Source: Pseudomonadota bacterium
GTDB taxonomy: Bacteria; Pseudomonadota; Gammaproteobacteria; Burkholderiales; Burkholderiaceae_C
Reading direction: 5' to 3'
NCBI GenBank assembly: GCA_018242005.1
Contig: JAFECU010000234.1
Location: forward strand, 1-64,000
Length of the DNA: 64,000 nt
In this document: positions 11,340-20,023 of the stretch, piece after piece
Position numbering within the stretch: position 1 is the stretch's first letter
Layout of the letters: every line of letters begins with the position of its first letter
The notes under the pieces: model-generated
Told to the model about the DNA's origin: nothing
Database searches by the model: none
The model's input: the letters and a program-made list of their open reading frames with translations, nothing else
Program-made: the position numbers and the translations under genes

Positions 11340-11368
11340 TTGCGGAATTCGCAAAAGATTCATACGAT
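11340..11368 (+). promoter_or_regulatory. Candidate suf operon promoter
   Basis: TTGCGG (11340-11345) and TACGAT (11363-11368) are 17 bp apart. The -10-like element falls inside the 23-bp palindrome at 11355-11377, so a protein bound there would block transcription. Assigned by inspection. Confidence 0.45.
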
Positions 11369-11377
11369 ATGAACATT
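11355..11377. promoter_or_regulatory. 23-bp palindrome upstream of sufB, shared with nnrS
   Basis: Half-sites AAGATTCAT and ATATGAACATT are separated by three bases; 8 of 11 pairs are complementary around the central base. Twenty of 23 positions are identical to the site at 20001-20023 upstream of nnrS. The 11-1-11 layout and AAGAT-start resemble sites of Rrf2-family repressors such as NsrR. The centre is 30 bp upstream of the sufB start. Confidence 0.6.
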
Positions 11378-11395
11378 TAAACGCCAGCATCCGAC

Positions 11396-12898
11396 ATGTC
11401 CCCACAAACCGTCACCCTTGGCGCACCCATGACCGGCCAGGACGCGCCGCCGGCCCAACAGGCACCCGCCCTGGAGCAGGCGCTCGCGCGCCCCTACCAG
11501 CATGGCTTTGTGACCGACATCGAGTCCGACAGCCTGCCGCCGGGCCTGGACGAGGACACGATACGCGCCATCTCGCGCAAGAAGAAGGAGCCCGAGTTCC
11601 TGCTCAACTGGCGCCTGGCGGCCCTGAAGCGCTGGCAGGCCATGGAGCTGCCCGACTGGGCGCGGCTGAAGATCGCGCCCATCGACTTTCAGGCGCTGTC
11701 CTACTACTCGGCCCCGAAGTCCATGAAGGACAAGCCCAAGAGCCTCGACGAGGTCGATCCCAAGCTGCTCGAGACCTACGAAAAGCTCGGCGTGCCGCTG
11801 CACGAGCGCGCGGCGCTCGCCGGCGTGGCGGTGGATGCGGTGTTCGACTCGGTCTCGGTGGGCACCACGTTTCGCAAGCAGCTGGCCGACGTGGGCGTGA
11901 TCTTCTGCTCGTTCTCGCACGCGGTGCAGAACCACCCCGAGCTGGTCGAGAAATACCTGGGCACGGTGGTGCCGCAGGGCGACAACTTCTACGCCGCGCT
12001 CAACTCGGCGGTGTTCTCCGACGGCTCCTTCGTCTACATCCCCAAGGGCGTGCGCTGCCCGATGGAGCTGTCCTCGTACTTCCGCATCAACGCGCAGAAC
12101 ACCGGGCAGTTCGAGCGCACGCTGATCATTGCCGAGGAGGGCAGCCAGGTCAGCTACCTGGAGGGCTGCACCGCCCCCCAGCGTGACGAGAACCAGCTGC
12201 ACGCGGCCGTGGTCGAGCTCATTGCGCATGACGACGCCTTCATCAAGTATTCGACGGTACAGAACTGGTACCCCGGCGACGAGAACGGCAAGGGCGGCAT
12301 CTACAACTTCGTGACCAAGCGCGGCCTGGCCGCGGGCAGGCGCTCGCGCATCGCGTGGACGCAGATCGAGACCGGCTCGGCCATCACCTGGAAGTACCCG
12401 AGCGTGGTGCTGCGCGGCGATGAGTCCAATGGCGAGTTCCACTCCATCGCCGTGTCCAACCACTGGCAGCAGGCGGACACGGGCACGAAGATGATCCACC
12501 TGGGCAAGAACACCACCAGCCGCATCATCTCCAAGGGCATCAGCGCGGGCCACGCGCAAAACAGCTACCGTGGCCTGGTGCGCGTCAACCCCGGCGCCGC
12601 GGGCGCGCGCAACCACACGCAGTGCGACTCGCTGCTCATAGGCAGCCATTGCGGCGCCCACACCTTCCCCTATGTGGACACCGCGCGCGCCGACGCCGTG
12701 GTCGAGCATGAGGCGACGACCACGCGCATCTCCGAGGAACGGCTCTTTTACTGCGAGCAGCGCGGCATCGACGCGCAGGAGGCCACGGCCCTCATCGTCG
12801 GCGGCTTCTGCCAGGCCGTCCTCGAGGAGCTGCCCATGGAGTTCGCGCTCGAGGCCAAGGCGCTGCTGGCCGTGTCGCTCGAAGACGCGGTGGGCTGA
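11396..12898 (+). CDS. sufB: Fe-S cluster assembly scaffold subunit SufB
   Basis: SufB forms the SufBC2D complex on which Fe-S clusters are built in the cytoplasm. The 500-residue protein contains the family blocks [54 protein letters not shown] and [17 protein letters not shown], with the conserved Cys and Glu of the assembly site. The N terminus has an extra 30 or so residues before the conserved [11 protein letters not shown]. It is the first gene of a six-gene operon (sufB-C-D-S-U-T). The palindrome just upstream suggests repression by an Rrf2-type sensor. A hairpin repeat separates it from sufC. Confidence 0.96.
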
Positions 12899-12900
12899 TT

Positions 12901-12954
12901 TTTGAGAAAAACGGGCTTTTGCACTTATGTATCAAGTGCAGGTAGCTATTAAAA
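12901..12954 (+). repeat. Dispersed hairpin repeat between sufB and sufC
   Basis: Inner stem GCACTT / AAGTGC, flanked by GGCTTT on the left and GGTAGCTATT on the right, with A-rich ends. It aligns with copies at 53302 (opposite strand), 55231 and 58301. It occupies almost the whole sufB-sufC gap, so the operon transcript will carry this stem-loop. Confidence 0.6.
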
Positions 12955-12968
12955 CGATAGGAAACCAC

Positions 12969-18351: not shown

Positions 18352-18376
18352 GCCCCGCCGCGTTTGCGCGTCGGGG
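18352..18376. terminator. GC-rich hairpin between convergent genes
   Basis: GCCCCG(C)CGCG pairs with CGCG(T)CGGGGC around a TTTG loop in the gap between the quinone oxidoreductase and the DUF2249 gene. There is no T tract, so it is a weak terminator candidate for either strand. Confidence 0.35.
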
Positions 18377-18387
18377 CCGCAACCCCG

Positions 18388-18687
18388 TCAGCCGCAGCAG
18401 GCGCCGCCGGAGCAGCAGGAATCTTCGGCCTCGGCGGCGGCCTTGGTCTGGGCGGCCTTCTTGGTGATCTCGATCTGCCACAGGTCCGGGCCGGCCTTCA
18501 GGTAGGCCCATTGGAACTGGCCGGGCGCGCGGGCCTCGAGCTGGCGGTGCAGCGGCACGGGGTCGTGGTCATTGACGATCTGCAGGGCCTGGCCGGCGGC
18601 CAGCGCGTCCAGCTGGCCAAAGATGCGTGCGTGGCGCTCGAAGGGGGCGATGGTGCGCACATCAATCACGGAAGCAGCATTGCTCAT
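18388..18687 (-). CDS. DUF2249 domain protein with Cys-rich tail
   Basis: Small cytoplasmic protein, 99 residues. The N-terminal 75 residues match DUF2249 (VIDVRTIAPFERHARIF, ALQIVNDHDPVPLHRQLEA, AYLKAGPDLWQIEI), a TusA-like fold often found beside NnrS, hemerythrin and denitrification genes. The C terminus ends in DSCCSGGACCG, four cysteines in 11 residues, suggesting metal or persulfide binding. It lies 56 bp downstream of nnrS on the same strand, so it is probably co-transcribed and part of the NO response. The molecular role is not established. Confidence 0.85.
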   Translation of the reverse strand: MSNAASVIDVRTIAPFERHARIFGQLDALAAGQALQIVNDHDPVPLHRQLEARAPGQFQWAYLKAGPDLWQIEITKKAAQTKAAAEAEDSCCSGGACCG

Positions 18688-18743
18688 GGGTTCAACCTTT
18701 CAAAGGACAGTGAGAGAAAAACGAAGGAAGCCGCGCACGGTGT

Positions 18744-19964
18744 TCAGCCGTCCTTGCCGTCCAGGCGCGTTCGCGTCAGCCAGGGGGTGTAGATGAACAG
18801 GTAGATGGCAAAGGCGATGCCCCACAGGCAGGCCGCGCCCTCCAGCGCATAGGGGTACCAGTGCGACTGCACGGCGGGCACCAGCACGCGCAGCACGGCG
18901 GCCAGCATCACGAGGCTATAGGCCACGACCTCGCCGCGCGAGGCCTGCAGCGGCCGCCCGGTGTGGCCGCGCGCCGTGCGCGTGATCATGCCGATGATCA
19001 GGCCGCCGATCACGCCCACGGCAAACGCATGCACGGCCAGCGACTGCGCCACCCAACCCAGCTGCGCCAGCGCCAGCAGAAGAAAACCGATGGGCAGCCA
19101 GGCGTAGGAGGCGTGCAGGATCCACAGGATCGGGCGCTTGAAGGTGACCTGCGGATGCCACATCCACAGCCGCGCGGCGTGCAGCACGGCGGCGGCCAGG
19201 CTGGCTGCCAGCAGCACCGGGGCGGGGGCGGCCAGCACCCACAGTGCCAGCGTGAGGGCCGTGACGGCCAGCAGCGTCAGCTCGAACTTGCGCGGCACGT
19301 TGATGGCCAGGCCGGGCGTCACGTTCTTGGTGAACATGGGCACGACGCGGCCGGTCATCACGCACACCACCATGATGATCAGCGCCAGCTCGGCATACAG
19401 GGCCGAGACGGGCGGCACGGCGATGGCGCCCAACACCGCCAGGTGGAACACCAGGTTGGCGATGGCCATCAGCACCAGCAGCGAGATCAGCGGGATATTG
19501 CGCTTGTTGCCGGCCTTGATCAGCACGCGCAGCAGTATGGCCGCGGCAGCCGGCAGCAGCGCCATGTCGAGCGCGGCAAAGACGGGGTAGGGCGCCACCA
19601 GCGCCGCCAAGCGCGCCGCCAGCCACAGCAGGATCAGCACGCCCAGCAGCGGGCCGCGCGCGGTCTCCAGCCCCGTCCAGGCCTTGACGGCCGTGAGCAG
19701 GAAACCCACCACCACGCCTGCGGCAAAGCCGAACAGCATTTCATGGCCATGCCAGAGCAGCGCCGGCATGTCCAGCCGCATCTGCATGCGGCCCAGGAAT
19801 ATGGCGATCCACAGCGGCACCGACAGACAGGCCAGCAGGGCCGTGCCCAGGTAGAAGGGCCGAAAACCGAGGCGCAGCAGCGGCCAGCCTTTGAGCGCAA
19901 TGGCGGCGGCGGCGGGCTGGGCCTTGTCGGAGATGGACATGAGTGGTGGCAGTGGCTGGGGCAT
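18744..19964 (-). CDS. nnrS: NnrS family NO-response membrane protein
   Basis: Heme/copper-containing inner-membrane protein that relieves nitric-oxide stress in denitrifiers and related bacteria. The 406-residue product is almost wholly hydrophobic, with about 12 membrane segments. It has family landmarks LLRLGFRPFYLGTALLAC, the His-containing LLWHGHEMLFGFAAGVVVGF, GRVVPMFTKN and GMITRTARGHTGRPL. It is followed by a DUF2249 gene. The 23-bp palindrome 37 bp upstream nearly matches the one before sufB. The start could also be the internal ATG at MSISDK, eight residues in. Confidence 0.93.
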   Translation of the reverse strand: MPQPLPPLMSISDKAQPAAAAIALKGWPLLRLGFRPFYLGTALLACLSVPLWIAIFLGRMQMRLDMPALLWHGHEMLFGFAAGVVVGFLLTAVKAWTGLETARGPLLGVLILLWLAARLAALVAPYPVFAALDMALLPAAAAILLRVLIKAGNKRNIPLISLLVLMAIANLVFHLAVLGAIAVPPVSALYAELALIIMVVCVMTGRVVPMFTKNVTPGLAINVPRKFELTLLAVTALTLALWVLAAPAPVLLAASLAAAVLHAARLWMWHPQVTFKRPILWILHASYAWLPIGFLLLALAQLGWVAQSLAVHAFAVGVIGGLIIGMITRTARGHTGRPLQASRGEVVAYSLVMLAAVLRVLVPAVQSHWYPYALEGAACLWGIAFAIYLFIYTPWLTRTRLDGKDG

Positions 19965-20000
19965 GGGCCTGTGGACTCAAGACAGGGCACTGGGCCCGAT

Positions 20001-20023
20001 AAGATTCATTTTATATGAACATT
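20001..20023. promoter_or_regulatory. 23-bp palindrome upstream of nnrS, shared with sufB
   Basis: AAGATTCAT and ATATGAACATT around three central bases; 8 of 11 pairs are complementary. It differs from the sufB site only at three adjacent central positions, and the following AAACG is also shared. NnrS is a classical target of NsrR, an Rrf2-family NO sensor whose sites have the same 23-bp length, so an NsrR-like repressor is a reasonable guess. Confidence 0.6.

Follow-up and report, generated by a model that had tools for sequence, protein, structure and literature searches.

What would lead an operon that builds iron-sulphur (Fe-S) clusters and a gene for defence against nitric oxide (NO) to carry almost the same palindrome at their doorsteps? 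Denitrifiers produce NO themselves and Fe-S clusters are destroyed by it, so a regulator common to both tasks is an attractive thought. The question is raised by a 64,000-nucleotide (nt) stretch of contig JAFECU010000234.1 (assembly GCA_018242005.1), hereafter the window, from a Pseudomonadota bacterium of the Burkholderiaceae_C, in which one 23-bp palindrome precedes the suf operon and another precedes nnrS. We consider it likely, at a probability of roughly 0.86, that both palindromes are operators of the Rrf2-family NO sensor NsrR, and that NO would release the joint expression of the SUF machinery, NnrS and YtfE. If an NO sensor directly switches on a second cluster-building machine, then damage control and rebuilding are one regulon, and its operators are testable in cultured denitrifiers.

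The palindrome in the window and in related genomes

Both palindromes are real and lie where a sequence-only reading of the window had placed them (Table 1), identical at 20 of 23 positions with mismatches confined to positions 10-12, each self-complementary at 8 of 11 arm positions and followed directly by TAAACG and AAAACG, respectively. The first stops 18 nt short of the sufB ATG (11396) and the second lies 36 nt upstream of the nnrS start (19964, minus strand). With up to three mismatches allowed, the two sites are the sole matches in the window, 100 dinucleotide-preserving shuffles of which contained none; the whole 3.96-Mb assembly holds three matches, and none to the same pattern read backwards as a control. 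Against the published NsrR palindrome of beta- and gammaproteobacteria, gATGyAT-N5-ATrCATc, the window sites agree at 10 of 14 defined positions, rising to 12 of 14 for the form of Neisseria, which has T for G4 (PMC1274295, Rodionov et al. 2005, accessible text); arms of the G type are seen in sites of relatives.

Conservation of the motif follows the genes concerned. Across 60 genomes searched at the same tolerance, 13 held a match, including all eight of the genus (the present assembly counted), and the reversed pattern matched once (G050). Where the loci were read, the motif stands before sufB in seven of the eight genus genomes and before nnrS in all eight, in both cases also in G016, and between the divergent nsrR and ytfE/dnrN genes in G001, G004, G007 and G010; in the present genome it also precedes nosZ. 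It is thus found at nnrS and dnrN/ytfE, both known targets of NsrR according to the accessible text of PMC1274295. Four three-mismatch matches in G043, G050 and G053 fit no target gene and look like chance. A matrix seeded with the window motif scores at least 17 at 23 of 30 nsrR upstreams and 20 of 28 nnrS upstreams.

For sufB, the test matrix was built from 30 nnrS and nsrR/ytfE sites, without any suf site, and run on the sufB upstreams. SufB is present in 27 of 250 family genomes, at 82% identity or more in 20 and at 66-71% in seven. In all 20 of the closer group the matrix finds a site before sufB: within 250 nt in 19 (14.4-36.6 bits, 0 of 200 first-order Markov resamples in each case) and at 436 nt in G215 (18.5 bits, 0 of 500 resamples). 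Sites before suf also occur in G001, G003 and G007, genomes outside the 27-genome draw, and in two loci (L031 and L033) of the three from a related-locus search, the other (L032) stopping before the sufB start. The seven more distant suf operons yield a site 355 nt upstream in G155 (28.9 bits) and a weak one in G187 (13.0 bits). Altogether, 117,143 bases of sufB loci contain 22 matches of at least 14 bits, every one upstream of sufB and two of them overlapping registers of a single site; 83,338 bases of iscR loci contain none. The sequence-only reading had named as refuting either absence of the motif at sufB and nnrS of close relatives or its presence at many unrelated positions. Neither is the case: the motif recurs at both genes, with nsrR-ytfE as an additional place, and is rare elsewhere.

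The genes are also linked in several genera. Neighbouring suf, nnrS and nsrR genes are seen in G254 and G137, and in the former the divergent nnrS and nsrR have one operator in common; suf and nsrR lie ~0.5 kb apart in G124 and ~4.3 kb apart in G222, and suf, nnrS and the NsrR-like gene are close together in G187, G155 and G120. These seven genomes were picked since earlier matches hinted at linkage, and are no census.

Two features of the sites themselves deserve mention. The nsrR-ytfE intergenic regions of G006 (L162:6213-6267) and G005 (L163:5736-5790) each contain two operator-like sites ~32 bp apart, perhaps one per divergent promoter. We gave up the idea that the T or G base co-evolves strictly with NsrR: suf sites are G-type and nnrS sites T-type in G102, G150 and G207, and nsrR sites are G-type and nnrS sites T-type in G002 and G003.

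A putative operator on the suf promoter

Overlap of the suf site with a -10 box had been proposed from the window, and it holds: the putative hexamers and their spacer (Table 1) form an arrangement conserved across genera. Positions 9-14 of the suf operators read TAnnAT in 18 of 21 upstreams and TAnnCT in the other three, and TTG occurs at a 17-nt spacer from the -10 in 14 of 21, compared with at most one of 21 at the other spacers tested (12-21). A conserved operator centre makes sense because that centre doubles as the promoter -10, which an NsrR dimer on the suf site would cover. Position 6 and its mirror, position 18, change jointly (T/T, G/G, A/A) in 18 of 20 distinct suf operators from 22 genomes, against a mean of 8.7 in shuffled data and with 0 of 2000 shuffles reaching the count; the figure is inflated by relatedness, yet three different letter pairs occur.

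From this anatomy a mechanism may be sketched. While NO is absent, a [4Fe-4S] NsrR dimer would occupy the -10 region of sufBCDSUT and the site upstream of nnrS, blocking transcription, and holo-NsrR would likewise repress ytfE-nsrR. Destruction of the cluster by NO would release NsrR from the DNA, upon which the cell would make the SUF assembly proteins together with NnrS and YtfE (RIC), a protein of Fe-S repair. The housekeeping isc operon, which starts with its own iscR and is without such a site, would stand apart. Binding, repression, the response to NO and the presence of nsrR in the living organism are what we infer here from sequence.

Table 1. Positions in the window of the two putative operators, the suf promoter and the genes they precede
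Feature	Coordinates	Strand	Remarks
Putative NsrR operator of suf operon	11355..11377	+	over -10; 31.4 bits, 0/200 resamples
Putative NsrR operator of nnrS	20001..20023	-	on + strand reads AAGATTCATTTTATATGAACATT; 36.1 bits in window scan, site itself in training set
-35 hexamer TTGCGG, putative suf promoter	11340..11345	+	17-nt spacer to embedded -10
-10 hexamer TACGAT inside operator	11363..11368	+	conserved across upstreams
sufB	11396..12898	+	NCBIfam SufB models 897.7 and 601.2 bits, both over cut-offs
sufC	12972..13739	+	TIGR01978, 301.9 bits, over cut-off
sufD, divergent	13744..14979	+	TIGR01981, 178.3 bits, below NCBIfam cut-off 222
sufS, cysteine desulfurase	14975..16252	+	TIGR01979, 481.8 bits, over cut-off
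sufU	16249..16713	+	TIGR01994, 150.5 bits, over cut-off
sufT (DUF59 family)	16749..17264	+	TIGR03406, 227.1 bits, over cut-off
nnrS	18744..19964	-	Pfam NnrS PF05940, 348.8 bits

Elsewhere in the window, an open reading frame (ORF) on the minus strand (24655-25545) appears by eye to encode a class A beta-lactamase.

The probable regulator and its rivals

Which protein would read these operators? The site between nsrR and ytfE points to an Rrf2 protein whose own gene has the operator and neighbours a published target of NsrR. An NsrR-like protein is found in 29 of 32 genomes examined (42 matches), the exceptions being the present assembly, G215 and G245. The 29 sequences that were read, out of 42 matches of which the other 13 are second copies and two pieces from G010, all keep Asp8, Arg12 and three cysteines; in NsrR of Streptomyces coelicolor, the nearest solved relative (90.5 bits), the cluster is held by Asp8 and three cysteines (PMC5411485, accessible text). 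The Rrf2 domain PF02082 scores 127.6 bits in the genus protein against a cut-off of 30. In a tree of 37 proteins, where both reference NsrRs form long branches and RirA was left out, 21 NsrR-like proteins join NsrR of Escherichia coli and S. coelicolor, apart from IscR, an IscR paralogue and 12 SufR-like proteins (99/97). Because the motif lies at its own gene, the characteristic residues are kept and it groups with known NsrRs, NsrR is most likely the binder of both sites. The one regulator linking Fe-S assembly to NO defence that the sequence-only reading had imagined therefore has the support of the motif at sufB, nnrS and nsrR-ytfE in relatives; of the two candidates it had named, NsrR fits and IscR does not, its upstreams being without the motif. 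As a separate observation, the nsrR match of G010 (L083; contig C1, 193940-194370) consists of two overlapping pieces in different frames, so that the gene may be broken there.

Several results pull against NsrR control, and are weighed here with the explanations that they would favour. Independence of the test matrix is only partial, because its training sites were themselves found via matrices seeded with the window's own motif. Five of the seven more distant family suf operons show nothing that reaches 13 bits; complementarity at arm positions 3 and 11 of the suf sites does not exceed chance; and G225 and G125 have suf sites with weak sites before nsrR and no nnrS found. The genus protein falls below the NCBIfam NsrR equivalog cut-off, at 119.9 against 182 bits (a database threshold, not a biological trait), where E. 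coli NsrR scores 292.8, and the NCBIfam model for RirA gives higher scores than the one for NsrR, both for this protein (141.2 against 119.9) and for eight of nine others. Should the regulator be a sensor of iron or Fe-S status of the RirA type, NO would not be its main signal, and the cysteine spacing x7-x5, that of RirA, counts in favour. RirA has Asn in place of Asp8, however, which counts against it. All 29 sequences keep Asp8, which in S. coelicolor NsrR serves as the fourth ligand of the cluster; the RirA cut-off is missed as well (141.2 against 193 bits), leaving the protein under both thresholds; and the operator fits the published NsrR consensus, with published NsrR targets, ytfE and nnrS, as partner genes. 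A RirA-type sensor is on balance quite improbable. A plasmid search returned no match annotated RirA among the best 40 of 230. The name NsrR, as applied to this putative regulator, rests on operator, targets, residues and tree, not on the NCBIfam threshold.

The assembly itself supplies the remaining objections. That the window contains no regulator gene had been remarked from the sequence, and the remark extends to the entire assembly, which yields IscR and a cysteine-free IscR paralogue, no NsrR and no ytfE (the ytfE search having no positive control). The species might then have lost nsrR, its sites being leftovers or bound by something else. This is very improbable in our view: the assembly is 91.29% complete in 313 contigs, nsrR is present in the seven other genus genomes, and both window operators are intact. 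In G006, moreover, ~8.6 kb of the 12 kb that surround nsrR aligns with G005 at 85-90%, whereas the same 12 kb finds only 12 short matches in the present assembly, the longest 170 nt at 69%. An ORF within that G006 region looks by eye like an endonuclease III. Since the surrounding 12 kb is missing along with nsrR, an assembly gap is the simplest reading of its absence, and probably the right one. IscR and its paralogue, since no other full Rrf2 protein turned up in the assembly, would otherwise be candidate occupants of the sites, placing suf and nnrS in a regulon of Fe-S supply, and suf of E. coli is under IscR control (PMC5411485, accessible text). Yet none of the 24 iscR upstreams examined as a control carries the motif at 14 bits or more (best 11.3 bits, G225), and in relatives it lies beside nsrR and ytfE; IscR was rejected as the binder on this count, and the idea in either form is scarcely credible. 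The paralogue (L005:1495-2028, contig C215) has zero cysteines and scores 133.4 bits on the NCBIfam IscR model against a cut-off of 207.55, and would be worth a look as a cluster-free IscR-like regulator.

Reach of the proposed regulon and comparison with known systems

Judged by the loci examined, the putative NsrR control of suf does not extend across the order. Of 399 genomes from the order 122 have a SufB match, and comparison with other families drew 28 suf loci from these 122 genomes. The 300 nt before sufB are free of an operator in all 28 (top score 9.7 bits); over the full loci (123 kb) the matrix reaches 14 bits only twice, each time within sufB itself; and in 27 of the 28 an Rrf2 gene lies within 0.7-1.5 kb upstream of suf. 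Order-wide control was rejected on these 28 operons, whose want of an upstream site suggests that NsrR control is particular to the suf lineage of this family. We offer, tentatively and at somewhat less than even odds, a change of master: NsrR may have taken over suf in this denitrifying lineage where, elsewhere in the order, suf sits beside a SufR-like Rrf2 gene. SUF would have become an Fe-S factory dedicated to NO, ISC would have stayed with IscR, and NsrR would sense both NO and cluster shortage, possibly also gating nosZ. Because NsrR needs an Fe-S cluster to bind DNA, a failing cluster supply would also derepress suf. If true, this would clearly exemplify the transfer of a stress operon from a local to a global regulator.

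Before nosZ, on contig C212 of the assembly (L003:1482-1523), an FNR/DNR-type box, TTGATGTAAATCAA, is immediately followed by a weaker NsrR-like 23-mer (43319-43341). Such a pairing occurs in 11 of 19 nosZ-bearing genomes examined; the matches of G242 and G010 were taken out of the count, as they overlap the FNR-type box itself. Control of nosZ by NsrR is uncertain because the arms of these sites are less symmetric.

We found no paper that places suf under NsrR in this family, although RegPrecise may hold the prediction. Work on other bacteria lends the mechanism support. In Sphingopyxis granuli, an NO donor or anoxia induces ytfE and, to a lesser extent, the SUF operon (PMC6472365, accessible text), and SUF genes of Burkholderia pseudomallei are among those needing RegA and NarL (PMC8191878, accessible text). 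Among SUF operons, those of the other families resemble the present one in being tied to an Rrf2 protein; their SufR-like proteins differ in forming a clade apart from NsrR (the 12 in the tree above) and their sufB genes in having no NsrR-type site in front, and the window, for its part, has no SufR-type gene before suf. RisR of Myxococcus xanthus, likewise of the Rrf2 family, is closer to NsrR than to IscR and also regulates genes of Fe-S assembly; according to the accessible text of PMC9973013 it directs both ISC and SUF, whereas here the iscR upstreams are without the operator and the partners belong to NO defence. NsrR represses suf of E. coli, with relief under nitrosative stress (review PMC8593673 citing Partridge 2009, accessible text). 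That operon is sufABCDSE, with input from IscR, Fur and OxyR, and the 114 nt before sufA contain no site by the 30-site matrix (best -6.0); here the operator is strong and conserved. The closest likeness in operator, in targets (nnrS and dnrN/ytfE) and in Rrf2 regulator is to the NsrR regulon of Rodionov et al. (2005), down to the G-to-T change at the symmetric position that Neisseria has in the accessible text of PMC1274295. That text leaves suf unnamed as a target, whereas in the present family suf would belong to the core, its operator lying across the -10. The effect of NsrR on E. coli suf and its control of nnrS and ytfE are thus known; what is new is suf as a probable conserved core target of NsrR in this family.

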